Positions 3,548-45,744 of a stretch of DNA of 50,513 nt are shown one piece after another; position 1 is the first letter of the stretch; every line of letters starts with the position of its first letter. Made by a program: the position numbers and the translations under genes. This DNA comes from a virus, in IMG/VR virus record IMGVR_UViG_3300042312_000581, positions 1 to 50,513 of that record; one strand, 5' to 3'. The notes beneath the pieces are model-generated. The model was given only the letters and a program-made list of their open reading frames with translations, had not been told where the DNA came from and ran no database searches.

Positions 3548-3742
3548 ATGAAAAACCGTGTAAAGCAGCTAATTGCTGATCTCGGTATTAGCGCTTATAG
3601 ATTTGCTGAAGATACGGGTATCTCAAAAAATACCGTATATCTATTAAAAAATAACCCTGATCAATTTCCGTCTGGTGACATATGCGATCGGATTATTGAT
3701 ACATATCAAGTAAGTATTGCTGATATTGTGAGGCGCAAATGA
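3548..3742 (+). CDS. Cro/CI-like helix-turn-helix repressor
   Basis: 64 residues, KNRVKQLIADLGISAYRFAEDTGISKNTVYLLKNNP..., a compact XRE-type helix-turn-helix: helix 2 about SAYRFAEDTG, recognition helix SKNTVYLLKN. It has no dimerisation or cleavage domain, so it resembles Cro or a minimal repressor. ATG 3548 is chosen over an in-frame TTG four codons upstream. It lies between divergent promoters and is overlapped by ATGA with the next gene. It probably governs the lysogeny switch by binding the AGTACT repeats. Confidence 0.8.
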   Translation: MKNRVKQLIADLGISAYRFAEDTGISKNTVYLLKNNPDQFPSGDICDRIIDTYQVSIADIVRRK

Positions 3743-4203
3743 TTAACCCAGAAACACTAGATTTGTCTACATTGCCATCCTTGCCTCTCAGCGATCGCAA
3801 GCAACTGCCTACAGTGTCTTGTATCTATTTCGCTATGTCCAATGGAGTTGTTCAATACATTGGGAAAAGCACTAATTTGAAAGATAGATGGCGTAGACAT
3901 CAACGCACTCAAGAATTAAGTATTGATTCTTGTATAGCTTGGATTGAAGTTAGTAATCCTGAGTTACTTACGGAAATCGAAAAAGCATTGATTTCTTGGT
4001 TTAATCCGCCACTTAATGGATCTAAAGTTGATTATTCTTTGGCAGGAAAAAAGAGATCTTTGGTAACACTGTATTTAGAGGAAGAGACTCGGAAAGATCT
4101 TGAGTCTTTTGCAAAATCTCAGAAAAGATCAATGAGTGCATCGATTGAGATTTTGATTATTGAAGCAGTCAAAAAAGCTAAAAAGCAAGGAATAATTGAA
4201 TGA
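3739..4203 (+). CDS. GIY-YIG nuclease domain fused to ribbon-helix-helix domain
   Basis: Residues 27-95 form a GIY-YIG endonuclease domain: CIY at 28-30 (in place of GIY), YIG at 40-42, KDRWRRH at 48-54 with the catalytic Arg, and a Glu near 79-81 before ALISWFNPPLNG. Residues about 103-148 (KRSLVTLYLEEETRKDLESFAK...SASIEILIIEA) look like an Arc/MetJ-type ribbon-helix-helix DNA-binding unit. It could cut DNA at an operator-like site or act as a regulator. ATGA overlaps on both sides tie it to the repressor and the BRO antirepressor. Confidence 0.8.
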   Translation: MINPETLDLSTLPSLPLSDRKQLPTVSCIYFAMSNGVVQYIGKSTNLKDRWRRHQRTQELSIDSCIAWIEVSNPELLTEIEKALISWFNPPLNGSKVDYSLAGKKRSLVTLYLEEETRKDLESFAKSQKRSMSASIEILIIEAVKKAKKQGIIE

Positions 4204-4928
4204 ACTTACAACTATTCTCATTTAACGATCAGTCGGTTCGTGTCATTTCTGTAAATGGCGATCCTTGGTTTGTCGCTCAAGACGTTTGTTCTATTTTGGA
4301 TTTAGGGAATGTAAGCCAAGCTTGCAAACCCTTGAAAGCTAGAGAAAAGGATCTATACAATAATGACACCCTTGGCGGTAAGCAAGATGTAGTAATCATT
4401 TCAGAGTCTGGCTTATACCGTTTGACCATGAAATCTCGTAAACCTCAAGCTGAACCATTCCAAGATTGGGTATGTGAAGAAATCCTTCCATCAATCCGCA
4501 AAACTGGTAAATATGAGGTAGTTCCATCTCAATCAGGAATTAAAACATCTATTCCAGTAATTGCATCTAGAGAGCTAGCACTAGAAACCGCCCGATCGGT
4601 ATCTGAAATCAAAGATTTATTAGCAGATACGGATCCGCGTTTATGCCAATTGCTTGTAGATGTAGCTATTAATGATGCAGTCAACAGCATTAAGGCGATC
4701 ACCCCTGCTAGTGAAACTCAATGGATGGGAGTAGCGGAAATTGCTGAATATTTGAAACTACCAATCACGCTGCAAAACCGTACCTCTCTAGGTAAATTTG
4801 TTAAAGCTGCATGTGGCAATATTGGCAAGCAAGAATCAAGAATTTGCAATGGTCGCATGATGCCTATTTGGTGCTATCCGTTCCCAAATAGTGAAGTCGA
4901 AAAAGCTGTTAAGAACTTTTTTAAATAA
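4200..4928 (+). CDS. BRO family antirepressor
   Basis: The N-terminal Bro-N domain spans about residues 3-110, with the hallmark strings GDPWFVAQDVCSILDL, ISESGLYRLTMKSRKPQAEPFQDWVCEEILPSIRKTGKY. The C-terminal half (MGVAEIAEYLKLP...) has a helix-turn-helix-like segment and a basic tail. Such proteins act as phage antirepressors or DNA-binding regulators. It is third in the repressor operon, with overlapping start codons. Confidence 0.88.
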   Translation: MNLQLFSFNDQSVRVISVNGDPWFVAQDVCSILDLGNVSQACKPLKAREKDLYNNDTLGGKQDVVIISESGLYRLTMKSRKPQAEPFQDWVCEEILPSIRKTGKYEVVPSQSGIKTSIPVIASRELALETARSVSEIKDLLADTDPRLCQLLVDVAINDAVNSIKAITPASETQWMGVAEIAEYLKLPITLQNRTSLGKFVKAACGNIGKQESRICNGRMMPIWCYPFPNSEVEKAVKNFFK

Positions 4929-6414: not shown

Positions 6415-6441
6415 ATTGTCTAATCGCAACCTTTAAAACAT

Positions 6442-6488
6442 AAAAGTAAAGCACCTCTACCAAAATCGGTAGAGGTGCTTTACTTTTT
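6442..6488 (-). terminator. terminator hairpin ending structured RNA A
   Basis: About 20 base pairs, the arms being AAAAGTAAAGCACCTCTACC and its complement, with a 6-base loop and T-rich flanks on both strands. Nearly the same hairpin ends copy B. Confidence 0.88.
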
Positions 6489-6988
6489 AAACTTGAGGAG
6501 TTAGTATTGAATTACCACAAACAAAATCTAACGTCCCGTCTTTTTTATGTAAATCAATATTAGCAGCTAGCGTTATAGTTTTGCAAGTATTTGGCATAAG
6601 AATTTTGGGTTTTGTGGTCTACGCAGAGAAAGTGGTTAGCTGTATCTCTGTAAGGTGAAAGCGTTGTGATGACTCAGTGCATAACAATTATTCCCCTTAC
6701 GCGTGTCAGAGCCTGTAACAAAGGACAATGACGTAGACACGCAAGCAATAGGTCGATGGTGTCACCGTTGGATATAAGCCCCAATGCGTCTGACTTAATT
6801 AGGGAGGCATCCCGCAAATAAAAAGGCAAGCCATCCGCCAGATTAGCGTCACCTGTGATACTCAATACAAGAGTAATAAAAATGGGTTTAAATTACTGAC
6901 TTAGGTGATTGAGTGAAAGACTCATAAATTTGTAGAGTGCTAATAAAGACTCTACATAAGGCTCTGCATTGCTCAAATCTAGAGCATC
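6442..6988 (-). ncRNA. large structured RNA, copy A (class unassigned)
   Basis: About 547 nt read leftward. It begins with GATGCTCTAGATTTGAGC (6988-6971) and ends in a long terminator hairpin (6488-6442). The same element occurs inverted at 38164-38677. The copies share both ends, the 15-nt block ATGCACTGAGTCATC (here 6682-6668), TTGCAAAACTAT and CTAGCTGCTAA. Helices are kept by compensatory changes: 6932-6938 with 6949-6955; 6910-6913 with 6921-6924; 6624-6629 with 6645-6650; 6514-6521 with 6611-6618; 6736-6740 with 6759-6763. A 63-codon open frame inside (6674-6865) has no counterpart in copy B. Size and phage context recall ROOL/GOLLD-type ornate RNAs, but I cannot assign a family. Confidence 0.85.
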
Positions 6989-7031
6989 AAACGGAATTAG
7001 CGAATTATCAAATCAAAAAAAAAAAAAGAAA

Positions 7032-7259
7032 TTAATCATTTTCAAGTTTTAATTTAATTTCTTTAACTTCCTGTTCTAAATTGGAAAGGCGATCGCTTAA
7101 ATCTCCCCATGCATCGGCAGGCATGATTAAGCAAAGCTCATTAACCAATTTAGTAAAATCAATTTCTTTGTCACCGTTTGATCTTCTACGCTCTAACTCT
7201 TTTATGAGTGATGCGTAAATATCTGGATAGAAACGAATGCTGCGCGGTATACCTTCCAT
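7032..7259 (-). CDS. ribbon-helix-helix (CopG/Arc-like) regulator
   Basis: 75 residues. The N terminus (GIPRSIRFYPDIYASLIKELERRRS) fits a beta strand followed by the first helix of an RHH dimer, a second helix follows, and the C-terminal SDRLSNLEQEVKEIKLKL is a coiled coil. Its start faces a palindromic site at 7305-7323, so autoregulation and control of the divergent 7.3 kb operon are likely. Structured RNA A begins 44 bases downstream of its stop. Confidence 0.7.
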   Translation of the reverse strand: MEGIPRSIRFYPDIYASLIKELERRRSNGDKEIDFTKLVNELCLIMPADAWGDLSDRLSNLEQEVKEIKLKLEND

Positions 7260-7338: not shown

Positions 7339-7605
7339 ATGACGCACATGATCGCTCACGCTATGACGCACACTGAAAGCCATATAGAGCTTAGCGTTAA
7401 GCAGATTATTGAAGCATACGGATTTGCAAGATCAACTTTTGAGGATTGGCGCGATGCTGTTTATTCAGGAGTTGGCGATCCGCCTTATTCACAAGATGAA
7501 TTAAAAATCATTCTTGAGTATGCTGAAAAGAGGTCTGCTAAAGCGTTTGGAGCTTCTAAAAACAAAAACACTCGTAAAATATCAAGGATCTTAAGATCGT
7601 TATGA
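7339..7605 (+). CDS. probable helix-turn-helix protein, first gene of the ATPase operon
   Basis: 88 residues. The segment LSVKQIIEAYGFARSTFEDWRDAVYSG...YSQDELKIILEYAEK looks like an excisionase/MerR-like helix-turn-helix with a following helix, and the C terminus is basic. Start is uncertain between 7339, 7348 and 7363 since none has a clear ribosome-binding site. Overlaps the next gene by 4 bases. Confidence 0.6.
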   Translation: MTHMIAHAMTHTESHIELSVKQIIEAYGFARSTFEDWRDAVYSGVGDPPYSQDELKIILEYAEKRSAKAFGASKNKNTRKISRILRSL

Positions 7606-8533: not shown

Positions 8534-8810
8534 CCATGTACGAGCGATCAGCACTTCCTTTTTAGTTGCCATGAGTTCTTGTGTTTTGTCTGGTGTTTGG
8601 CTTGCTGGTAGTTGGGTTTACTCTACCTATCTACAGCCTAAAGTTGCAGTAGTAGAAGTCTCGGAATCTCGCAAACAATTAGAAAACAGACATCGCAAAT
8701 TACTTGAGAAATCAGGATTTAAAAGCGATGTCAAACTTGGATCTGTTACTGATGAAAATTTAAAAGCTGCTAACCACAAATTAGAGGAAGCACTAAGAGC
8801 AGGGCGATGA
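8505..8810 (+). CDS. membrane-anchored coiled-coil protein (101 aa)
   Basis: One transmembrane helix around residues 17-40 (TSFLVAMSSCVLSGVWLAGSWVY), then a periplasm- or cytosol-facing charged helical domain with VSESRKQLENRHRKLLEKSGF. ATGA-coupled to the ATPase. No family recognised; a partner of the translocase is an inference from linkage. Confidence 0.6.
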   Translation: MPTTRQHNLNHVRAISTSFLVAMSSCVLSGVWLAGSWVYSTYLQPKVAVVEVSESRKQLENRHRKLLEKSGFKSDVKLGSVTDENLKAANHKLEEALRAGR

Positions 8811-10066
8811 ACTTAACAAAAGACTTCCATGTATCGCAAGTAGCGCTAGTACTTATTACTCAGCGCTATTCTCACTATGGGAGTCTTTCAAGTTCGTTTA
8901 TCGCATTCATGCTATTTCTGTCCGTTCCCTTTCAGTCAAATGATTTTGCAAGGGGCTTTATCTTTGTCTCTCAATTAGCAGCTACAGCAACATGTTTTAA
9001 GCTCTCAAGGCTTAATCAAACCTTGTCTAGTGAAAACCATCTAAGTGTTGTTAATCGTGCTAATCAGGGTTATTCAGAGCATTTAGCGGTATCCTATGCG
9101 CCTCCCAAGCGTGATGTAGTTGTGATGGAATCAGCTAAGCCTTTAGCACCATTAGTTAAGGACGATATTAAAAAAGCTCTTTCCAAACCTCATATTATGC
9201 TTTTAGGGGAAACGGGATCGGGTAAATCCACTTTAGTTAAATATTTAGTATCCCAATCATCCGCCCCTGCGATCGTATTGGATGTTCATGCCGCCCCTGA
9301 TGATTGGCAAGGCATGACAGTAATTGGCGCAGGGCGCAACTATAAAGCTGTTGGTGATGAGGTTACCCGATTAGTCCAGTTGATGAACGATCGGTACGAA
9401 TTACGAGGCAAAGGTAAAACAACTTTTGAGCCATTGCTCGTAATTCTTGATGAATTTCCTGCTTGTGTTGCCAATCTTGGGAAAAAGTTTACTGAATCAA
9501 TAATGCTATTGGTTCGTGAAGCTAGAAAAGTAGGTATTAAATTAATCATTCTTGCCCAAGGGTCTGAAGTAAAAACCTTGGGAATTGAAGGGCAAGGAGC
9601 GATCAGAGAATGCTTTGCTATGGTTACACTTGGTAAATTTGCAATCAATGCAGCTAAATCGCTTAAAGATGAGCAAATTATTGAGTTTATTAATAATGCT
9701 CAGTATCCTGCAATGTTGGACGATCTGCCTTGTGATTTGCCCAATATTGGCAACTTAAAGCTTAATTTGTTGCCAATGCCAAGCGATTATAATCCTACGC
9801 AATTATCATTACAACCTGAATCGATTACTGATAACTCTGACTTTGATTTTCTCCAAGATAGAGAGCCAATATTTTTAAAAATTGTTGACTTTCTGGATGG
9901 TAGGGAATGGGAGCGCGATAATTATATTCGTGAGTCAATTACCGACCTAAAAAGGAATAAAACGCCGATCTCTGAAGTCCAAGGCTATCTGCAATATTTG
10001 GAGGTGCAGGGCTATGTGGAAACTCGTAACGCTGGAAGAAACGGATTAGAAGCAAGGAAAATATGA
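8807..10066 (+). CDS. FtsK/HerA-like membrane-anchored DNA-translocase ATPase
   Basis: 419 residues. Hydrophobic segments near residues 30-62 anchor it to the membrane. Walker A GETGSGKST is at about 134-142 and Walker B LLVILDEFPA at about 210-219. The C-terminal 70 residues (FLDGREWERDNYIRE...YLQYLEVQGYVETRNAGRNG) look like a winged helix, as in the DNA-recognition end of FtsK-type motors. A hexameric motor moving double-stranded DNA is the family role. With the tiny membrane proteins before it, the set recalls FtsK-type transfer or partition loci of mobile elements. Which of these it does here is not shown by the sequence. Confidence 0.82.
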   Translation: MNLTKDFHVSQVALVLITQRYSHYGSLSSSFIAFMLFLSVPFQSNDFARGFIFVSQLAATATCFKLSRLNQTLSSENHLSVVNRANQGYSEHLAVSYAPPKRDVVVMESAKPLAPLVKDDIKKALSKPHIMLLGETGSGKSTLVKYLVSQSSAPAIVLDVHAAPDDWQGMTVIGAGRNYKAVGDEVTRLVQLMNDRYELRGKGKTTFEPLLVILDEFPACVANLGKKFTESIMLLVREARKVGIKLIILAQGSEVKTLGIEGQGAIRECFAMVTLGKFAINAAKSLKDEQIIEFINNAQYPAMLDDLPCDLPNIGNLKLNLLPMPSDYNPTQLSLQPESITDNSDFDFLQDREPIFLKIVDFLDGREWERDNYIRESITDLKRNKTPISEVQGYLQYLEVQGYVETRNAGRNGLEARKI

Positions 10067-10254: not shown

Positions 10255-10459
10255 TTTACTTCTAATTCCAATCGCTCTAATCGTCATCGCTTTTGTTTGC
10301 CGATGGTATACGGCGTTTATGGAATCGCAGATTGAGAGTCGCGATCGTAGATTGAGAGAGGTTGAGATCGTGTGGTTGCGTCGCTGTTATGCGGTGGACA
10401 AAGAAGAGCTAGACCGAATCAGATACAAACAAATTATGGATGATAAATACTATGAGTAA
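10238..10459 (+). CDS. single-span membrane protein (73 aa)
   Basis: MENSTNLLLIPIALIVIAFVCRWYTAFM forms one transmembrane helix. The rest is a charged helix (ESRDRRLREVEIVWLRRCY...). TGGAAAC before ATG 10238 is the best ribosome-binding site; ATGs further upstream in frame are less likely. Confidence 0.6.
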   Translation: MENSTNLLLIPIALIVIAFVCRWYTAFMESQIESRDRRLREVEIVWLRRCYAVDKEELDRIRYKQIMDDKYYE

Positions 10460-18628: not shown

Positions 18629-18644
18629 TATCAACGCGCTTAAC

Positions 18645-18660
18645 AGGGAGTAGCGCCCCT
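18645..18660 (+). other. intergenic hairpin of the shared spacer family
   Basis: AGGGAGTAGCGCCCCT, followed by ACAACTAACTAAACAAGG before the next ATG. The same arrangement, hairpin plus CAACTAAC plus AAGG, occurs before genes at 33503 and 34419. Confidence 0.55.
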
Positions 18661-18690
18661 CTTACAACTAACTAAACAAGGAAAAACACA

Positions 18691-19077: not shown

Positions 19078-19289
19078 TGCCTAAATCACGCACCGAAATT
19101 TATCGCGATTGCTATCTAAAGCGTACAGCAGACAAACCACGCTACTACTGTACGCAATGCGATCGCCAACTCAGATCAGATTCACCTCTCACTATTTGCC
19201 GCGCTTGTTGGCTTAAAACGGATGAGGGTAAGGAGTATCTGAGGCTGAAGAAAGCAGAGTCAAGAGCTAAGAATAAAGCTGAAAAGTGA
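19077..19289 (+). CDS. treble-clef/zinc-ribbon-like small protein (70 aa)
   Basis: CTQCDRQLRS...ICRACWL supplies two CxxC pairs that could bind zinc, flanked by basic N- and C-terminal tails (KKAESRAKNKAEK). Stop/start TAATG overlap with the previous gene. Probably binds nucleic acid. Confidence 0.62.
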   Translation: MPKSRTEIYRDCYLKRTADKPRYYCTQCDRQLRSDSPLTICRACWLKTDEGKEYLRLKKAESRAKNKAEK

Positions 19290-19357
19290 TAAAATATTTG
19301 TGGCTTCGCGATGTTGACAGCATCCAAGCCCGTATAACCTACACAACAGGACTACAC

Positions 19358-20212
19358 ATGTCTAATCTTATCAAGAATTGGAATGATCGCGCCATCCGTA
19401 TTCGCAGCGATCGCTATGTTTCATTAACCGACATGGCTCAAGCCACGGGAAAGAGGGTCAATAATTGGCTTAGGCTTGATTCAACAAAATCTTATTTATC
19501 AGCACTTGAAAGCGTTACTCATTTAAGAGCAACGGACTTACTGCAAGTGATTCAAGGCGGTGACTCGCAAAAACAAGGCACATGGGGACATCCTAAAGCC
19601 GCGATCCGTTTTGCTCAATGGTGTAGCGATGAGTTTGCGGTACAGGTAGACATTTGGACTGATGAACTTATGACGACTGGTAAAGTCGAGTTAGTCCCAT
19701 CTCAACCCGCACTACCTCAAAACTATATTGAGGCTCTAGAGGCACATCTACAATCTGAGAAAGATAAAAAAGTACTTGCTGAAGCTAACCAGAAATTGAT
19801 CGCCGCTAATCAGTCGCTTGAAATTGAAGTGCAGACTTTAGAACCAAAAGCCGATCGCTATGATTTGATTTTGGCTACCGATGGATGGATGACGGGTGAA
19901 GAAATCTGCAAGCAATTGGCAATTCCTAAATTCTCTAATCGCAAGCTCTATGATATTTTGCGTCAAGAGAAAGTATTGTTTAAGCGTCCCGATGGAACTA
20001 ACTGCCCATATGCTGAATGGGTAAATGAGGGGCTTGCTAAGCTTCGTGATGGTCAATGCTTTGATGGTCGTATGAGATTTAGCCCTGCTTTCTCTTGGAA
20101 AGGATTGGATCGCATTCTTGACCTATTGCGTAAACATCAAGTTATTCCCAAGGATAAGCAGTATCGATTTAACTTTGATTCTGACAAAATCGTAGCGATG
20201 AAGAGGGCTTAA
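19358..20212 (+). CDS. KilA-N domain antirepressor-like protein
   Basis: 284 residues from ATG 19358, which follows an ACAGGA ribosome-binding site; 24 codons in frame upstream are probably untranslated. KilA-N hallmarks: IRSDRYVSLTDMAQATGKRVNNWLRLDST, HPKAAIRFAQWCSDEFAVQVDIWTDEL. A coiled coil follows (LEAHLQSEKDKKVLAEANQK...) and a C-terminal antirepressor-type domain (GWMTGEEICKQLAIPKFSNRKLYDILRQEKVLF). Second antirepressor-type protein of this phage besides the BRO protein. Confidence 0.85.
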   Translation: MSNLIKNWNDRAIRIRSDRYVSLTDMAQATGKRVNNWLRLDSTKSYLSALESVTHLRATDLLQVIQGGDSQKQGTWGHPKAAIRFAQWCSDEFAVQVDIWTDELMTTGKVELVPSQPALPQNYIEALEAHLQSEKDKKVLAEANQKLIAANQSLEIEVQTLEPKADRYDLILATDGWMTGEEICKQLAIPKFSNRKLYDILRQEKVLFKRPDGTNCPYAEWVNEGLAKLRDGQCFDGRMRFSPAFSWKGLDRILDLLRKHQVIPKDKQYRFNFDSDKIVAMKRA

Positions 20213-23171: not shown

Positions 23172-23462
23172 ATGAGTAACAAAGTACAGCTACATTTCAC
23201 ATGGGAAAACGGTATTGATGCAGAGCCAACTCTGTATACAATTGATGTTGATTTGCTCAGAGCAGATACGTCTTTATCTGGTAACGATGAAGCTGTTAGA
23301 CTGGAAGTTCTTTCTGTGATTGATGGTGACAAGGATTATCTCGAATCTACATTAATGAATAAAATCTGGAAAGCTGAAGATGAAGGTGATTTTAATTTAG
23401 GCAAGTATTCTGTTAAAGACGATATTAGATGCATCACTCTTGAATCCTGTCAAGAACCTTAA
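23172..23462 (+). CDS. hypothetical protein (96 aa)
   Basis: MSNKVQLHFTWENGIDAEPTL... acidic, beta-rich first half. ATG 23172 is placed after TAAGGAG. No family recognised. Last gene of the island before a strong convergent terminator. Confidence 0.6.
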   Translation: MSNKVQLHFTWENGIDAEPTLYTIDVDLLRADTSLSGNDEAVRLEVLSVIDGDKDYLESTLMNKIWKAEDEGDFNLGKYSVKDDIRCITLESCQEP

Positions 23463-23465
23463 CTT

Positions 23466-23516
23466 GTAAACTAAAAGCCCCGTCTTGATATTGTCAAGAC
23501 GGGGCTTTTAGTTTAC
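23466..23516. terminator. perfect bidirectional terminator
   Basis: A 23-bp perfect stem around a 5-base loop: GTAAACTAAAAGCCCCGTCT and three more bases against their complement. It separates the rightward island from the leftward tape-measure gene, whose stop lies inside it (23513-23515). Confidence 0.92.
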
Positions 23517-26500
23517 ATACTCAACGCCGCCGATCGCGCCATCTCTCTTTGAATTTGCAAAGCGATCTCAGTAGCATTACCGCTACCAGTAGTCACATTT
23601 ACGTTATAGGTTTTATTGCCTCCTGAATTGTTCAATACGTTCTTAGTCTGGTTTGCGGGCAACACATTAGAGCCTCTAGGCAATGTCACAAGCTCAGCAC
23701 CTCGTTCTCCTACCAATGCCATACCGCCGCGGAAGTTTGTAACACCACTAGCAAAAGCAGGAACTTTACCTACCCCTACAGCGCCGCTAAGTGGTGAAGC
23801 CCCTTTGGCGACTGATAGAGCGCTGATAATTTGCTGTGCAGACTTACCTAAAATTTGCTGTATCTCAATCGCAGACGCTTTATCTAGCGCCCTTTGTTGC
23901 TCTTTAAATACTCTCTCACGTTCGATTTTCTGATCTTCAAAGGCGCGATCCTTGGCTAACTCAGCATCTTTTTGCTTGATCTTAAGCGCTTCTAACTCAG
24001 CATCAGCAGCTTTTTTGAGTTCAGCATCTTTGGCGGCTTGCTGTAGTTTAAGAGCATCTTCTTGCGCTTGCTGTTCCCTCTTAAATGTAGCTAACTCGCC
24101 ACGCTCAAAGGCTAATTTACTAGCCTGTAATTCAGCTTCGATTCTTTGCTTTTCAGGTTTGAGTACAGTGTTCTCAAAAGCCAACTTAGCAGCGTTTTGC
24201 TCAGCATCAAAAGCCAACTTAGCAGCGTTTAATTCAGCTTCAAAAGCCTTGTCACTAGCTCTCTTAGCTTCAGTGCGCTTTGCATCTTCAGCTTTATCAA
24301 TCTCAGCTTGTTTGGCTTTGTTGGCTTTCTCCAATTCGTCTAAGGCAAGCTGTACTTTTTTCTGCTCTTCACCCGTAGCGATCGCGGATACTTGAGCTAT
24401 TTGCTTAGCTTTAGCTACTAATTGTTCTTGGGATTCAGTACCACCAGCTACGCCTTGGGTCGCCGCTTGTGCTCTAATGCGTTCTTCTTCTTCGATTTGC
24501 GCTGCAATCCTAGCCCGATCTTCTGGGCTAGCAGTAGCGATCGCACCCTCATTACTGATTAATTGCTTAGCTTTTGACAAAGCCTCAGACGCTTGTTTGT
24601 CACGTTGAGCGCGTTGCGCTGCAAAAGCTTCATCGTCTTTACGTTGCTTTTCTGCTCTCTGTTCCTTAAGCGCATTTTGCTTGTCATCAAAATCCTGCTT
24701 GAGTTTGTTTAGTTTCTCCTCGTTTGCACGTTTCTTAGCATCAAGAGCATCCTCAAGTTGTAGTTTTTTGGCATTCTGAGTGTCGTCAAATGCGCGTTGC
24801 TTATCTTGTAAAGCTAGGGTTTGCTTTTCCTTTAGTGCCTCTGTTTCTAGCGCTTGCCTGCGATCTAGCTCACCTTTTGCGAGTGCATTTTTTTCTTCGA
24901 TTGCCTTGATTGCATTGGCATTCTCACGATCGCGTTTGGCTTTGGTGTCTTCAAAGGATCGCTTGATATTTTTTTCAGCGTCTTGGTTTTGTATCTCCTT
25001 AACCGCGATCGCTTGTTTTTTAAGCTCTTCAGTATTTACTTGAGCCGCCTTACCAAATTCAGCCGATGCATTCGCATTAGTTTCGTTTAATTTAATTTGC
25101 TCCTTAAGAATATCGTTTTGTCCTTTCAGAGCATTCTCTGATTGCTTTAAATCAATTAACTGACCCTCTCTAGTCCCCTTAGTTTCATCAATCGCGCCGC
25201 CTTGCTTGATTTTATTTTCTTGTTCAACGATCGCCTTCAGTCTTTCCTCATTGGCTTTTACCAGATTTTTAGCATCGGTAATTTGTTGCTCGCTTGCTTT
25301 TTTACCTTCAGCCGTAAGTCCTTTAAGTTGATTGCTAAATGTTTGGGCTTTAGTAGCAGATCGGATCGCTTCATCACCTAAAGTTTTTACTCCGATCCCA
25401 GTTGCGTTGAGTGCATCCAAAGATTCAGAAATCTGGTTAGCTTTGATTTGTGCAAATAAAACACCCGCAGCAGCAGCAGCTAATCCTAGAGGGATAATCA
25501 AAGCGCTAGCTGCCCCTGTAGCAGCCGCTAACGATCCTGTGAGTACTTTCGTAGCACCCGAATATAAAGCCGTTGCACCCGTGGCGATCGCAGTCTTAGC
25601 AGCGACTAAACCTAGTTGCACATTTTTGATTGCTAATTGGGCATTAGCAAGGATTAAATCACCTGTGATCTTCGTGGTAGCAAGACTATATAAACCAGTG
25701 GCGATCGTACTAGCTTGAGTTTTGATGGCTGTAGCACTTTGTGCAATGCCTTGAGAAACGGTAGCAGCAATAGATCCTTTGGTAGCTGCAACAGATGCAT
25801 TCTCAGCAATAGTCTTCTCGACAATCGCACCCGTTAAAATTTTAAACGCGCCAATCGTAGGAGTAATTACAGCTAACGTACCTGTAACTACAGCCGAAAT
25901 AGCAAATCCTGCACCAACTAAACCAGCTAGCGTACCAATTACACCCTTGATAGCAGGATCTAATTTTGCAAAGCCATCGGTAACACCTCTTAAAGTATTT
26001 GTAACTACGAGTGTGAATGGCGCAATAACTGCCCCAACTTCCGCGAGTGCATCCTTAAGTTGATTGGCGCTAGCAGCCGCTTTATTAAATCCTGCTGCTT
26101 TCTCAAAGTTCGCATTTACAGCGCCGCTTGCATCCGCAACAGTATTTAAGCCATTTTGCAGAGACGGTAAGACAGCATTAACATTTTTAGCACTGCCAAA
26201 TAGGGTATTAAGTGCGGTTGAGTTTTGGTCGATTCCTTGTGCTTTAAGTTGCTTAAGAGCTTCTTCTAGTCCACCCGATTTGATTTTTTGCTCGTCTAAA
26301 ACAATACCTAACCCCTGAGCTTTCTTGACAAAATCGCCACTTTGCAAACCATCAAGAGCTTGGTTAAGCGCTCCTACTGAGGTTTTGGCTGTGATGCCCT
26401 GCTTTGATGCATTAGCAATAAATGAATTTAATTGCTCAAAGCTAGTACCTGTACCCGCAGCAGTGCTAGCTAATTTATCGTATTGCGCCCCTAGTTCTCC

Positions 26501-33503: not shown

Positions 33504-33531
33504 TGTTGTTACCTTGTTGGTTAGTTGAGAG

Positions 33532-33547
33532 AGGGGCGCTACTCCCT
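33532..33547 (-). other. intergenic hairpin of the shared spacer family
   Basis: AGGGGCGCTACTCCCT, nearly the complement of the 18645 hairpin. On the minus strand it is followed by TCAACTAACCAACAAGG and the next start. Confidence 0.5.
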
Positions 33548-33565
33548 CATTTGCGCGGGGTGTAG

Positions 33566-34685: not shown

Positions 34686-34715
34686 AAGATATCATCACTA
34701 AGTAAAAGATGTCAA
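34686..34715 (-). promoter_or_regulatory. leftward promoter P2 of the family
   Basis: TTGACA (34715-34710), 18-base spacer TCTTTTACTTAGTGATGA, TATCTT (34691-34686). Flanked upstream by ACCCTA as in P3. Confidence 0.68.
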
Positions 34716-34754
34716 TAGGGTAAACAAACTATTTTTTAGAATGTTGATTGAGAG

Positions 34755-35075: not shown

Positions 35076-35105
35076 ATAGTATCAGCACTAGACGAAAGGT
35101 GTCAA
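35076..35105 (-). promoter_or_regulatory. leftward promoter P3 of the family
   Basis: TTGACA (35105-35100), 18-base spacer CCTTTCGTCTAGTGCTGA, TACTAT (35081-35076). Confidence 0.7.
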
Positions 35106-35143
35106 TAGGGTAAATAAACTATTTTTTAGATCGTAATATTCCG

Positions 35144-37498: not shown

Positions 37499-37711
37499 CT
37501 AATCTTTTATCTCATGCAAAACACAGCCAAAATCTTCGCCAGTTTGTTGGTTTTGTTGGCTTCGATACAAATTAATTGCATCGCGCATAGTTTTAGCCTT
37601 TGTTCCTTCAGGGAGTGATTTATACCACTCCTCTGTTTCTTTTGTTACGCCCAAAACCACTTTGATAAATACAAGTGAATCAGGCTTGGTTGTGCCTTTA
37701 GGTCTAGCCAT
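37499..37711 (-). CDS. ribbon-helix-helix candidate with AT-hook-like start (70 aa)
   Basis: MARPKGTTKPDSLVFIKVVLGVTKETEEWYKSLPEGTKAKTMRDAINLY. RPKG is AT-hook-like and the strand-helix-helix pattern fits RHH regulators. Overlaps the upstream gene by 8 bases and could control the 37.9 kb promoter. Confidence 0.6.
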   Translation of the reverse strand: MARPKGTTKPDSLVFIKVVLGVTKETEEWYKSLPEGTKAKTMRDAINLYRSQQNQQTGEDFGCVLHEIKD

Positions 37712-37886
37712 TGATTTGTTTTTTTCCGTTTGCGTCGTAACCTCTAGCAGCTAGCCATTTTTCAGCACCTTTGCGGGTTTTGAATGACTTGGATTGAGTA
37801 AGTGTCAATGCTTCAAATGTTCCGTCACTATCTTCAAAAATTCCAGTGGTTAATGATTCGTTATTGCCTAAATCTAAAACTTGCAT
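37704..37886 (-). CDS. hypothetical protein (60 aa)
   Basis: MQVLDLGNNESLTTGIFEDS... with LTQSKSFKTRKGAEKWLAARGYDANGKK, a beta hairpin plus basic helix as in small integrase-arm- or ssDNA-binding-type folds. First gene of this leftward operon. Confidence 0.58.
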   Translation of the reverse strand: MQVLDLGNNESLTTGIFEDSDGTFEALTLTQSKSFKTRKGAEKWLAARGYDANGKKQING

Positions 37887-37948: not shown

Positions 37949-38163
37949 CCACTAAATAACTATTTCTTTTTTTTATCCTCAAACCCAAACACAGCAAAGC
38001 GATCGCCTATGACAGCGATCTAATTTAGAGGGATGAAAATCTAACAAGCCGATTTGCTTTGTACCTGAGTTTTCCTATTGTTGGTGTGGTTCTCATTTTT
38101 TTTGCTCAACTAATTTTCAGTTTTGATTGTTTCTTTTTTTTTGCATTTAATCTTTAAATCAGC

Positions 38164-38677
38164 GATGCTCTAGATTTGAGCATGAAGAGTCCTTAGCTGA
38201 GTGTTTATATACTCAACATTTACAAGCCTTTCACTTGATTGCCTAAGTCAATATATCAACCCATTGCACTGTAACTTCTGTTACTGGGTGAATCTCGTTT
38301 TGCGGGTGGCTGCTTTCAGGCTCTACTAACTGCGCTTATCTCTCGGATCGCTATTCCGACACCACCGACATGTTGCCACCGTGTCTGATTCAGTAAGAGC
38401 TTTGCTAGGCTCTTTTAACACGGGATAAAGCTTAAAACAAAGCCATGCACTGAGTCATCGCAAGTTTCGCCTTATGGGAATACAGTCAGCCACTATCCCA
38501 CGCTGACCACTAAACCTAAAATCTTTATATCAACCTATTGCAAAACTATTACTCTAGCTGCTAAGATTGTTTACATAGAAATAGGACGCTGAATTTTCTT
38601 AGTGGTATTTGAATTTTAGCTCCTTAAGATTAAAAAGTAAAGACCTCCGCCGTAATTGGTAGAGGTCTTTACTTTTA
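38164..38677 (+). ncRNA. large structured RNA, copy B (class unassigned)
   Basis: About 514 nt read rightward, inverted relative to copy A. Starts GATGCTCTAGATTTGAGC (38164-38181), ends in a terminator hairpin. Shared 15-nt block ATGCACTGAGTCATC at 38445-38459. Helices with compensating changes against copy A: 38198-38202/38211-38215; 38223-38226/38234-38237 (CAAG/CTTG for TGAG/CTCA, same 7-nt loop style); 38475-38479/38496-38500; 38506-38513/38599-38606; GACAC/GTGTC at 38358-38362/38381-38385 with an 18-nt loop in both. A T-rich tract and TTTAAT precede it, as T-rich DNA precedes copy A. No conserved open frame. The remaining DNA in 37949-38163 and 38690-39016 shows no gene. Confidence 0.87.
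38632..38677 (+). terminator. terminator hairpin ending structured RNA B
   Basis: AGTAAAGACCTC pairs with GAGGTCTTTACT and the inner GCC/GGT pairs with one mismatch, then TTTTA. Nearly the same as the end of copy A. Confidence 0.87.
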
Positions 38678-39016
38678 TGTGCTGACTCAAACGCCTTTTT
38701 AGTTGGTCTCTGCTCCCCTTTTGAGTAACTAACGGTTTTGAAGCATTAGTCCTTAAAGATGCTGACTATCCTTTTGGCAGTGCTAAAATAAAGCGGAGAA
38801 GCTTTTCTTTACAACACACTTCGCGATCGCCTGTCTGCTTCTCTCCAACAAAGGTGGGCGACGCTTATTTAGTATTTAATCGTTACGCTTAAATTCTTCG
38901 GCTAGTCTATTATTTTACCATTATCAAAAACCGTCACAGTGGCAACGGCTTTTTTGTGCGCCGATACCCTACTTTGTAAACAAATATTAAGAGTTTAAAT
39001 ATTTTTGGTTTTACTA

Positions 39017-39069: not shown

Positions 39070-39453
39070 ATGAACGCCAACCAAATCGCACAAATCGCAA
39101 CCGCTTTAAACGTCTCTCCCAACCAAATCAAGAGAGCAGAGGAATGGAAGAATGTACTTTTTGTTGTAGTTCAAGGTAAGGGCGCTCGTTTTGTATCTAA
39201 GAAGGTAATTAAAATGGATATTTTGGCTCAAGTTGAATCAAATAATTTTGCGAGTTCCTACTCCGAGGTTTATGAGTGGTTAAAATCCAATGCTAATCCT
39301 ATCGGATGGACTTCTTCTTTTGTCGTAGCAATTGACGACAGAAAATTTACTGTTAAAGATGTTGATGGGCGATGGTTTTCAACTGAATCAAAACCTAAAA
39401 CGTCTTCTGACTTTAAGGGAATGATGAAAACAGGCGAAGAATCAGTTTTGTAA
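39070..39453 (+). CDS. hypothetical protein (127 aa)
   Basis: MNANQIAQIATALNVSPNQIKRAEEWKNVLFVVV... helix-turn-helix-like start (NQIAQIATALNVSPNQIKRAEEW), then an alpha/beta body with VVAIDDRKFTVKDVDG. No family recognised. First gene after the 39 kb promoter. Confidence 0.62.
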   Translation: MNANQIAQIATALNVSPNQIKRAEEWKNVLFVVVQGKGARFVSKKVIKMDILAQVESNNFASSYSEVYEWLKSNANPIGWTSSFVVAIDDRKFTVKDVDGRWFSTESKPKTSSDFKGMMKTGEESVL

Positions 39454-42185: not shown

Positions 42186-43048
42186 CACCTAGAAAAACCA
42201 TGAAAAACGAAAATGAATCTTTAAAGCCGTCAAGAGGCTTTGGGAACAGCTTCGCTGTTCCCAAAGGTGAGTATGCTTATCCGACTGATGCATTACAGCA
42301 ATCAGGAACATCAATCTTTGACCCCGTACTTTGCGAATTAGTTTATCGCTGGTTTTGCCCTCAAGACGGTACAGTTTTAGACCCGTTTGCTGGCGGTTCG
42401 GTGCGTGGCATTGTCGCCAACTATTTAGGTTTGCACTATACAGGCATTGAGTTAAGGAAAGAGCAGGTAGAGGCTAACATTCCGCAAGGTTTAAAGCTAT
42501 GCCCTGATAATCCGCCGCGATGGATTAATGGCGATTCTCGCAATGTTACGCAGCTTACTAAGGATGAAAAGTTTGATTTAATCTTTAGTTGTCCTCCCTA
42601 TGGCGATCTAGAGGTTTACTCAGATTTAGAGAATGATTTGAGTACATTACCCTATAAGCAATTTATCGAGCCCTATCGCTTAATCATTGCTAACTGTATT
42701 AAACAACTAAAAGACGATCGCTTTGCTTGCTTTGTCGTTGGCGACTTTAGGGATAAAAAAGGATTTTATAATAACTTCGTTGCAGACACCATCACCGCTT
42801 TCCATGATGGCGGTATGTGGTTATATAACGAGGGAATTTTAGTAACATCCGTTGGCTCGTTACCTATCAGGGTTACCAAACAATTTCAGTCAGGGCGCAA
42901 ACTTGGCAAAACGCATCAAAATGTTCTCGTATTTTTCAAAGGTAATCCAAGCAAAATCAGAGAGATTTATGGTGATGTAGAGATTGACGAATCAATTTTT
43001 ACTCAAGATGAAAACCCTATAGCTAGTCAATTTGGCGAGGTTTTATGA
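42170..43048 (+). CDS. DNA methyltransferase half of ParB-methyltransferase
   Basis: 292 residues. GTSIFDPVLCELVYRWFCPQDGTVLDPFAGGSVRGIVANYLG carries motif I, SCPPYGDLEVYSD motif IV, with QNVLVFFKG near the end. In related phages it forms one polypeptide with a ParB domain. An alternative start is ATG 42200. A hairpin (42238-42266) is read as part of the coding sequence (GNSFAVPKG). ATGA-coupled to the PLP-type gene. Confidence 0.82.
   Translation: MCNRLAPRKTMKNENESLKPSRGFGNSFAVPKGEYAYPTDALQQSGTSIFDPVLCELVYRWFCPQDGTVLDPFAGGSVRGIVANYLGLHYTGIELRKEQVEANIPQGLKLCPDNPPRWINGDSRNVTQLTKDEKFDLIFSCPPYGDLEVYSDLENDLSTLPYKQFIEPYRLIIANCIKQLKDDRFACFVVGDFRDKKGFYNNFVADTITAFHDGGMWLYNEGILVTSVGSLPIRVTKQFQSGRKLGKTHQNVLVFFKGNPSKIREIYGDVEIDESIFTQDENPIASQFGEVL
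42238..42266 (+). repeat. 13-bp palindrome inside the methyltransferase gene
   Basis: CTTTGGGAACAGC-TTC-GCTGTTCCCAAAG; perfect arms 42238-42250 and 42254-42266. It resembles small cyanobacterial palindromic repeats that appear in genes as GNSFAVP. Confidence 0.75.
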
Positions 43049-43749
43049 TTTTTGAGCCTGTCATAAAAGAGCATGAAGGGGTATTAGTAGTTAGAGACGA
43101 TTACATTAAAGGCGGCTCTAAGCGGCGCTTTGCAGATCAACTAATTAAGCCCTATCGTGAGGTTGTTTACGCATCCCCTGTTTATGGCGGCGCTCAAATT
43201 GCTCTAGCTTGCGCGGGTACAGAGTTAGGGGTAAAAGTTACAATCTTTTGCGCTAAACGTGGCACTCCACACTCGCGCACCTTAGAGGCTAAAAAGTCAG
43301 GCGCTACTATTGTTCAAGTCCCCTACGGATATTTAAGTAATGTAATCTCAAAGGCTAAAGCGTATTGTCAGGCTACAGGCGCTTATCTATTACCGTTTGG
43401 ACTAGAAACCCCGTTAGCATTTGAGGCGATCGCGGGTACAGCAAAATCAATTTATAATCAATACCCTGATATATCAGAAGTTTGGTGCGTTGGAGGAAGC
43501 GGCGTTTTATCGAGATCCTTGCAAATAGGCTTTGGTGATAGAGTTAAGCTAAACGTGGTACAAGTAGGAAAGGAGCTAGATCGATCTAAACTTGGCAACG
43601 CAAAAATATATACTCATCCGTTCACGTTTGACAAAGATGCAAAGATAAAACCGCCATTCCCTTCATGCTCAAATTATGACGCTAAAGCATGGGAATTTAT
43701 TAAAAAATACTCAAGAGAAAAAGCATTATTCTGGAATGTAATGGCATGA
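43045..43749 (+). CDS. fold-type II PLP-like enzyme, function unknown
   Basis: 234 residues. VVRDDYIKGGSKRRFADQLI places a Lys after GGS like the cofactor lysine of ACC deaminase/cysteine desulfhydrase-type proteins; VYGGAQIALACAGTELGVKVTIFCAK and EVWCVGGSGVLSRSLQIGF are the following phosphate-loop regions. The same type of gene accompanies ParB-methyltransferases in other phages. Substrate unknown; a role in DNA modification is only inferred from neighbours. Confidence 0.68.
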   Translation: MIFEPVIKEHEGVLVVRDDYIKGGSKRRFADQLIKPYREVVYASPVYGGAQIALACAGTELGVKVTIFCAKRGTPHSRTLEAKKSGATIVQVPYGYLSNVISKAKAYCQATGAYLLPFGLETPLAFEAIAGTAKSIYNQYPDISEVWCVGGSGVLSRSLQIGFGDRVKLNVVQVGKELDRSKLGNAKIYTHPFTFDKDAKIKPPFPSCSNYDAKAWEFIKKYSREKALFWNVMA

Positions 43750-44462
43750 CAACCCGCACCAAATCCAAACCGTACGATCGCCAGCCCAACGAAACAGACA
43801 AAAGTTGGGCGGCTTTTTGTGTGTATAGGGATATGGGACGGGAGAGAACAGCAAAGAAAGTACAATTAGAGTGCAATTACAAACAGCCATCAATCATACA
43901 GCAATGGTGCTTAAAACACAACTGGGTAGCACGTTGTAGCGCTTTTGATGATGATGAACTAGAAAAGCAATCTATTGCACTTCAAAAAGAGCGATTAAAT
44001 AGACGTTTACAAATGGAAAGAGATGCTTGGAATAGGCGCGATAAGCTGATTAAGAAAGCTGACACGATCGCTAGAGTGCCATTATTAAAACCAGAAATGA
44101 GCGAAGATGGTACTCAAATATTTATGCCTACGGATAAATGGAGCGTGAAGGATGCAATCGCTTTTTATGAGTACTCTGATAAGCTTGGCATATTTGCGAC
44201 AGGCGGCGAAAAGCCTAAAATGGATATCATTGACGCTATTAACTTTTTAGCTACTAATGAAGTGCTACCGCCCGAATTTGCTGTAGTTGCATCTAGGGGA
44301 ATAGAACAATTTAAAAATCTGCTTAGGGAATTACTTAAAAATGGGACTGGCGACGTTAACGAACAGTTTGAACCGACAGAACCGATCGGCGCTTTCTCAG
44401 ACATACTCGCAACAGCAGAAGAAGCTCCAACTACATCCGCTACAGCAAACGATAGCCAATAG
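43746..44462 (+). CDS. terS: small terminase subunit
   Basis: 238 residues. The N terminus has a helix-turn-helix layout (RTAKKVQLECNYKQPSIIQQWCLKHNWVARCSAFDDDELEK) used by small terminases to recognise packaging DNA, then a central oligomerisation region and a low-complexity acidic tail. Immediately before the large subunit, overlapping it. Confidence 0.75.
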   Translation: MTTRTKSKPYDRQPNETDKSWAAFCVYRDMGRERTAKKVQLECNYKQPSIIQQWCLKHNWVARCSAFDDDELEKQSIALQKERLNRRLQMERDAWNRRDKLIKKADTIARVPLLKPEMSEDGTQIFMPTDKWSVKDAIAFYEYSDKLGIFATGGEKPKMDIIDAINFLATNEVLPPEFAVVASRGIEQFKNLLRELLKNGTGDVNEQFEPTEPIGAFSDILATAEEAPTTSATANDSQ

Positions 44463-45744
44463 CCAAGCCAAATACACGATCGCAGTATCAGGGCGGCGCT
44501 TTGGTAAAACCATCTTGCAGATATACAAAGCCCTTGAGCGCGTTGCGGTTGGTGCGCCATATAACCCAGTAGCGCCGCCTGTAGTGGTGTTAGCTGCTCC
44601 TACCTTGGTTATGGCTCGTAGGCTGCTATGGAAGCAGTTGCTAAACACCTTACGCAATCACAAAGCGGTTGAGAATGTCAGCAAATCAGAATTTACGATT
44701 ACATTTAAGAATCCCGATCCGTATAAGTTTTATATGCCCGATCTAATGATCATGGGTTTGAATGATGGCGATGGCGATCGCGCTCGTGGTTTGCGCCTAT
44801 GGCATTTTGGGGGTGATGAGTGGCAAGACTGGAAAGCAAGTATTTTTCCAGAGATTATTCAACCTGCGCTATCTGATACGCAAGGCAGTACAGCGCTATT
44901 TACTTATACTCCCAAGGGCAAGGTTAATCATACCTATGAGGCTTATCAAAACGCACTTGTTGCCGATCCTAGGGTATGGCAAGCATTCAAATATAAGAGC
45001 GTTGAGAATCCGCACCTTAAGCCAGAAGATATTGAGCTACTTAGGAATAGCTTAACCCCCCGCCTATTTCGCCAAGAAATGGAAGCAAGCTTTGAGACAT
45101 TTGAGGGGCAATTTTTTGAAACGTTAAGCGATCGCCATGTCATCAGTAATAGCGAGTTACCTAATGAGTTTGCGTATCGTATCTTATCAGTCGATTGGGG
45201 CGCGGTAAATCCTAGAGCCTTGGTAGTTTGCGCCTTTATTAAAGATGGCTTTTATCACTGGTTTGTGGTCGATGAATGGCGTGTCCCTAGAACGATGCAG
45301 GGGCAAGCAATATTAGAAGATGATTTTTTATATGAATGCCATAGATTAGCTATGAAGTGGCGCGTCAATAGAGCCTTTGGCGATCCTTCTAGACCTGATG
45401 CGATCAAATCATTACGAGCGTGGAAACCAAAAGAGGGGCAAGTATTCAAAGAACCATTTAAGAATTACTGCTCAGAAGTTAGGGGCGCGGTAAACGACTT
45501 TATTAAGGGCGTTGACTTAATGAGTAGCGACTTCTACCACGAACGGATCAAGATTGTGGATACAGTGCCTCAGTTCTTTGAGGAGTGCCAATCGTATCAC
45601 CGCAAAAAGGATAAATACGGCAATATCACTGAAGAAGAAGCCGATAACCAAGTAACACACGGTATTGACTGTTTGCGGTATGCGATCGCTTCTATGCCTC
45701 CCGTTAATCGTCAATCAAGCTTTGGTAGTAGTCGGGCTATGTAA
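44341..45744 (+). CDS. terL: large terminase subunit
   Basis: 467 residues from the first ATG. Walker A SGRRFGKT at residues 50-57; Walker B and acidic pair RLWHFGGDEWQDW about 152-164; C-terminal nuclease domain with SVDWGAVNPRALVV, AFGDPSRPDAIKS and VTHGIDCLRYAI. Packages DNA and cuts it at ends. The ATG lies 122 bases inside the small subunit gene, so a later non-ATG start near residue 20-30 is possible. Confidence 0.93.
   Translation: MGLATLTNSLNRQNRSALSQTYSQQQKKLQLHPLQQTIANSQAKYTIAVSGRRFGKTILQIYKALERVAVGAPYNPVAPPVVVLAAPTLVMARRLLWKQLLNTLRNHKAVENVSKSEFTITFKNPDPYKFYMPDLMIMGLNDGDGDRARGLRLWHFGGDEWQDWKASIFPEIIQPALSDTQGSTALFTYTPKGKVNHTYEAYQNALVADPRVWQAFKYKSVENPHLKPEDIELLRNSLTPRLFRQEMEASFETFEGQFFETLSDRHVISNSELPNEFAYRILSVDWGAVNPRALVVCAFIKDGFYHWFVVDEWRVPRTMQGQAILEDDFLYECHRLAMKWRVNRAFGDPSRPDAIKSLRAWKPKEGQVFKEPFKNYCSEVRGAVNDFIKGVDLMSSDFYHERIKIVDTVPQFFEECQSYHRKKDKYGNITEEEADNQVTHGIDCLRYAIASMPPVNRQSSFGSSRAM

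Follow-up and report, generated by a model that had tools for sequence, protein, structure and literature searches.

Two homologous units in a phage genome that probably represent a large structured RNA gene of cyanophages

To our knowledge, only a handful of large structured phage RNAs have been described, and their functions are open. Those of the ROOL kind (Rumen-Originating, Ornate, Large) are often sited by tRNA islands. ROOL and GOLLD RNAs form homo-oligomers, and GOLLD has a conserved 3′ half with a variable remainder (PMC12286853). A second described system that bears on the present locus is intronless homing, in which a free-standing endonuclease replaces a locus; it is established in phages (PMC2988022), and F-CphI of cyanophage S-PM2 is one such case (PMC6083498). 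Here, we analyse two units in a 50,513-nt stretch of viral DNA (IMG/VR record IMGVR_UViG_3300042312_000581), referred to as the window throughout.

Copies A and B are homologous non-coding units that share their first bases, GATGCTC, and their terminator:

38164–38677, + strand: RNA copy B, about 514 nt, beginning with GATGCTC and closing with the terminator hairpin (sequence comparison)
6440–6988, − strand: RNA copy A, about 549 nt, from GATGCTC at 6988 to about 6440 (sequence comparison)

BLASTN aligned the two copies with 77% identity over the 3′ 245 nt (E = 2e-43) and, in a second stretch, with 74% identity over 151 nt (E = 1e-13). Over the whole alignment identity is 65.5%, made up of 66% in the 5′ region, 51% in the middle, 70% in the 3′ region and 86% in the terminator. 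Neither of the two sequences contains a long ORF, and the indels between them are not multiples of three, breaking any common frame; on these two grounds, a protein-coding origin of the copies was ruled out. The diverged copies are probably paralogues or separately acquired alleles. An earlier note on this DNA, made from the letters alone, described the copies as transcribed outward, and this agrees with their placement: A runs on the − strand from 6988 and B on the + strand from 38164, each facing away from the interval between them. Since the window is a fragment of the roughly 80-kb genome implied by relative G001 (see below), “outward” and “31 kb apart” hold for the window only.

Both units have matching boundaries:

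38134–38142, + strand: T9 tract upstream of copy B, in the context TTTC-T9-GCATTTAAT, kept in relatives as T9–T13
7015–7027, − strand: T13 tract upstream of copy A, T9–T11 in relatives (sequence comparison)
38633–38676, + strand: terminator hairpin of copy B, 15 bp plus inner pairs (folding, BLASTN)
6442–6487, − strand: terminator hairpin of copy A (folding)

The T tract lies 21 nt before the common first base in copy B and 26 nt before it in copy A, the note having given 20–45 bases. Nowhere else in the 50.5-kb window, on either strand, is there a run of nine or more T. In nine of the nine relatives with a readable 5′ end (eight with the RNA, plus G010, which has only the RNA ends), TTTC followed by T9–T13 occupies the same place, and such a tract is found almost nowhere else in the genomes of these relatives. 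Because it is kept in every one of them, the tract belongs to the RNA gene, most likely to its promoter. Its length varies among near-identical phages (9, 10, 11 and 13 at the A site; 9 and 13 at the B site), with the proviso that homopolymer lengths from metagenome assemblies may carry errors. No sigma-70 consensus promoter was found at the start of either copy, so that the promoter itself and the exact start position are inferred. At the other end, as the note had also said, each copy has a long terminator of its own, AAAAGTAAAG..CTTTACTTTT, which forms a perfect hairpin (15 bp and 21 bp).

Folding of single sequences gave z-scores relative to shuffles of −3.9 for copy B and −4.9 for copy A. 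For an alignment of copy A, copy B and the B copies of G005 and G008, RNAalifold gave z = −7.8 and a covariance term of 92, compared with 76 ± 4 in column shuffles that keep conservation and gap classes. We then counted as covarying only those stems that are present in A, B and G005 and have at least one change on both sides. There are nine such helices, compared with 3.5 ± 1.9 in class-preserving column shuffles (maximum 8 of 60). The independent sequence lineages are only three (A, B and G005), and column shuffles do not preserve dinucleotides; given the three lineages, the covariation support is good or suggestive rather than saturating. The helices discussed here are the following:

38165–38183, + strand: 5′ hairpin of copy B, ATGCTC-TAGATTT-GAGCAT (folding)
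38379–38423, + strand: helix CCGUGU/ACACGG of copy B, with GCGUGUC/GACACGC in copy A (covariation)
38475–38500, + strand: helix UGGGA/UCCCA of copy B, with CAGAGA/UCUCUG in copy A (covariation)
38506–38606, + strand: long-range helix of copy B, ACCACUAA (38506–38513) with UUAGUGGU (38599–38606) (compensatory pairs)

The long-range helix is the clearest of all, being formed by ACCACAAA/UUUGUGGU in copy A and by ACCACUC/GAGUGGU in G005. It encloses the near-invariant block TTGCAAAACTAT..CTAGCTGCTAA, which is among the most conserved stretches of the family. The loop of the UGGGA/UCCCA helix, UCAGC (38486–38490), can pair with GCUGA (38588–38592), the corresponding pair in copy A being CUAAC/GUUAG, and this loop-distal pairing is a candidate pseudoknot. 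The two properties by which we judged an independent structured ncRNA gene, absence of a reading frame and a covarying fold, were both found, the latter in three lineages.

No Rfam family matched at gathering or relaxed thresholds, either in positions 38100–38720, searched with cmscan permissively to E = 5, or in the whole window. The ROOL and GOLLD covariance models, including that of the conserved 3′ region of GOLLD, had no match in the RNA region or the window (cmscan), and neither Rfam nor ARAGORN matched a group I or II intron, RNase P RNA, tmRNA, 6S RNA, OLE or HEARO. ARAGORN found no tRNA or tmRNA anywhere in the window. The weak Rfam hits, for example ohsC on the terminator hairpin, were all below the gathering score. 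Weak matches to the ohsC and Plastid-psbA-3 models were also seen, on both strands, at a strong two-way, terminator-like hairpin that ends the tape-measure gene (23439–23534).

Among isolated phages and plasmids there was no DNA match to the RNA, and a single exact-pattern scan of bacterial genomes returned four chance matches, none of them cyanobacterial. IMG/VR, which was searched by exact short patterns, yielded the RNA in nine further contigs, six with an A-type and three with a B-type copy, of which one B-type copy runs off the end of its contig; given the exact patterns, more diverged members may exist. L048 was rejected as a carrier, since it has the same 17-mer in a tRNA region, a chance match. 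The phage itself has 58 GCGATCGC sites against 0.3 expected, an excess that we take as a signature of cyanobacteria, and the closest match of its terminase is the one from Leptolyngbya phage Lbo402-yong5 (35% identity). The window also encodes a HerA/FtsK-type ATPase ORF (8807–10066) besides the separate large terminase (44341–45744), and a PLP-dependent enzyme ORF similar to a threonine dehydratase-like PHROG (43045–43749), possibly an auxiliary metabolic gene. It contains two further repeats. One is a 54-nt inverted repeat (18635–18688 and 33504–33557, 78% complementary, 14.8 kb apart), which lies upstream of opposite-strand ORFs and may be a shared regulatory site; the other is a 51-nt direct repeat with GTGTCAATAGGGTAAA (34690–34740 and 35080–35130, 86% identical), which has similar copies in relatives and may represent repeated operator sites.

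Since the carrier contigs are syntenic, two fixed slots can be compared among them. Slot A is bounded by a small DNA-binding-type ORF and a GGCGGATCGC terminator, and slot B by the DUF1391 ORF and the ORF starting at 39070. The ORFs by which the two sites were characterised are:

7032–7259, − strand: 75-aa ORF directly upstream of copy A, ribbon-helix-helix-like by eye, no Pfam family reached
7339–7605, + strand: 88-aa ORF in the copy A block, with a weak helix-turn-helix match, divergent from the 75-aa ORF
37704–37886, − strand: DUF1391 ORF on the left of slot B (PF07151, 8.7e-25)
39070–39453, + strand: ORF on the right of slot B, used for the slot survey (synteny)

In the window and in six relatives, slot A is occupied by the RNA. 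It is empty in G005 and at least two further relatives, and three have a small unrelated ORF there. Slot B contains the RNA in the window, G008, G006 and G005; elsewhere it holds a 322-aa ORF (G001), a similar stretch (G012) or a DUF559-type endonuclease ORF (G010, G015 and L240). Among all records seen, only the window has both copies, and the other contigs have one at most. G001 (80,032 bp) has copy A only. Its ends adjoin on the map of the window, so that it is apparently a complete circular map, and the window would accordingly be a fragment without roughly 29 kb. G005 has copy B only, its slot A being an empty site, and the RNA is absent from the near-complete G012 and G014 (73–76 kb), which span the greater part of the G001 map. 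Because absence from fragmentary relatives proves nothing, we base the argument on G001, G005, G012 and G014, in which the slots in question or most of the map are covered. The RNA copy of G005 is a mosaic: its 5′ part and 3′ core are 85–94% like B, while in the middle its identity is 65% with A and 48% with B.

The same RNA unit with the same ends thus stands at two non-homologous sites, and some syntenic relatives have it while others lack it in one and the same slot, which is how we recognise a moron or accessory gene. The earlier note regarded each copy as an independent gene, and the conserved start and T tract, the separate terminator, the covarying fold and the solitary position at two unrelated sites bear this out. 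The note went on to argue for a function from the retention of two divergent copies, and named a single copy at a variable place in related phages as evidence to the contrary. The comparison did not support this argument, as none of the related phages seen has two copies (only A in G001, only B in G005, none in G012 and G014), largely the situation named. The orientation of a copy is set by its slot and the inverted pair is not conserved. An inverted-pair architecture with a packaging role, which we considered, was made unlikely by this survey.

About 43 nt separate the 75-aa ORF from copy A, which follows it on the same strand. One block, shared by five relatives, comprises the RNA and both ORFs, with 99.3–99.6% identity for RNA A, 100% for the 75-aa ORF and about 99% for the 88-aa ORF, the outer neighbours being mostly 90–96% identical. 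Because RNA A and its neighbours move together as one cassette, its high identity is not creditable to selection on the RNA alone; recent cassette transfer would explain it as well as purifying selection. Relatives without the RNA have a different protein at the position of the 75-aa ORF. As a separate observation, other relatives have a different small ORF pair at the place of the 75-aa and 88-aa ORFs, resembling exchangeable regulator alleles. Elsewhere in the window, an Arc-like repressor match and two antirepressor-type ORFs (3739–4928 and 19286–20212) suggest temperate ancestry.

In slot B of some relatives, a DUF559-type endonuclease ORF (PF04480, E = 8.9e-14, over the cut-off) lies antisense at the place of the RNA B body: at 3939–4511 of L047 (G010), at about 17350–17920 of L221 (G015) and at 10458–11024 of L240. 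In G010, the RNA promoter region, a T13 tract, the 5′ hairpin and the terminator survive around the endonuclease; in G015 and L240, only the RNA 3′ end and terminator survive, beside a close relative of the G010 ORF. We therefore set aside L047/G010, G015 and L240 as further copies, as they are relics with RNA ends beside an endonuclease ORF. Given these surviving ends, the RNA body has most likely been replaced, and the entry of the endonuclease into the RNA gene is a probable case of intronless homing.

Taken together, these results lead us to the account that we consider the probable one, namely that A and B represent a large structured ncRNA gene of cyanophages, a self-contained, dispensable, moron-type cassette that sits in accessory slots and acts in trans. 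It builds on the homology, the coding-free structure, the unit boundaries at two unrelated sites, the covariation and the slot occupancy described above; from there we infer that the RNA is transcribed, acts in trans on a partner and confers a benefit. Each copy would be a cassette made of a T-tract promoter region, a folded RNA of about 515–550 nt and an intrinsic terminator, and would occupy one of the two accessory slots of the genome. In the infected cell, the RNA would act in trans in a dispensable function. Its 3′ half would form the conserved functional core, with covarying helices and the candidate pseudoknot presenting the TTGCAAAACTAT..CTAGCTGCTAA block as the most likely binding surface for a host or phage partner, and its middle domain would be fast-evolving. 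Because relatives have one copy or none and an endonuclease replaces the RNA in some, it looks like an optional accessory gene and not an essential virion part.

A different possibility is that the RNA is a base-pairing regulator of the phage decision or immunity region and that it, or a processed part of it, anneals to phage or host mRNAs. Copy A indeed shares a block with the ribbon-helix-helix-like 75-aa ORF and a divergent helix-turn-helix-like ORF, a block replaced whole in relatives without the RNA, and the Arc-like and Ant genes at 3739–4928 are only about 2–3 kb away. However, copy B is not in such a regulator block, BLASTN matches elsewhere in the window, outside the copies, do not exceed 17 nt, so that no long complementary stretch is seen, and an antisense RNA would not usually be this large or have so ornate and conserved a fold; we regard this possibility as unlikely. 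Quite unlikely, in our view, is that the RNA gene is a selfish cassette, or mainly a landing site for free-standing homing endonucleases, where a DUF559-type enzyme cuts the locus of a rival and repair swaps in its own gene. The RNA ends kept around the antisense DUF559 ORF in G010, the 3′ end and terminator kept beside a related ORF in G015 and L240, and the intronless homing described for phages in PMC2988022 and PMC6083498 are all in keeping with it. Yet it accounts for loss or replacement of the RNA and not for its spread or the conservation of its fold; moreover, most RNA copies have no adjoining endonuclease, and cleavage of the RNA locus is hypothetical.

The position of copy A some 43 nt after the 75-aa ORF, on the same strand, could also point to a cis-acting element, acting either on adjacent genes, as their leader, 3′ UTR or attenuator, or at the DNA level, for instance as a replication origin. 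Such a role is very unlikely considering that copy B is isolated between divergent operons, its strand having no gene upstream of it, that both copies have strong terminators of their own, that the neighbours differ between the two sites and that near-complete relatives lack the RNA altogether. As to the proposal of the earlier note that two inverted copies are kept together for capsid or packaging functions or as a dimer of two RNAs, the window does hold two copies and homo-oligomers are known for ROOL and GOLLD (PMC12286853). No other record has both, however, relatives with the same structural genes have at most one copy, and no observation connects the RNA with capsid, packaging or an A/B dimer; we consider this proposal extremely improbable. 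Absence of the RNA from near-complete relatives argues against an essential virion role, and the RNA may instead serve in host takeover, which the note also mentioned, or in another accessory role.

If the accessory RNA gene is the correct reading, it can be extended, more doubtfully, to an undescribed family of large ornate phage RNAs behaving as an RNA moron and possibly self-assembling like ROOL and GOLLD. In this tentative extension, the middle domain would be a modular, fast-evolving part, the promoter-proximal T9–T13 tract could tune expression, and the RNA would be displaced by endonuclease genes in rival phages. RNA A/B would add a cyanophage family outside Rfam to the large structured phage RNAs. 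With a host at hand, the natural plus/minus variation and the two-copy state would make deletion straightforward to test, and the endonuclease replacements are a rarely seen instance in which a probable homing endonuclease has displaced an RNA gene.

Compared with the known systems, RNA A/B resembles ROOL in being a structured, non-coding RNA of over 500 nt that is encoded by phages or prophages, dispensable and without an assigned function; unlike ROOL, it does not match the covariance model even at a relaxed E-value, and the window has no tRNA genes. With GOLLD it shares phage encoding, large size and a conserved 3′ half with a variable rest, but it does not match the covariance model, does not reach the 800+ nt that many GOLLDs have and has no tRNAs nearby. 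Because of the missing model matches and the lack of nearby tRNAs, we file it under neither, and by analogy suggest that it works like ROOL or GOLLD without being a member of either. The situation in G010, G015 and L240 parallels that of homing endonucleases (Seg/Mob of T4 and F-CphI of S-PM2), where an endonuclease ORF replaces a locus between preserved flanks; it differs in that, unusually, it is an RNA gene that is displaced, and in that the enzyme is of the DUF559 kind, with a putative cutting site. Finally, like phage morons, RNA A/B is self-contained, brings its own start and terminator and occupies fixed slots between genes in some related phages but not in others, except that its product is apparently an RNA and not a protein.
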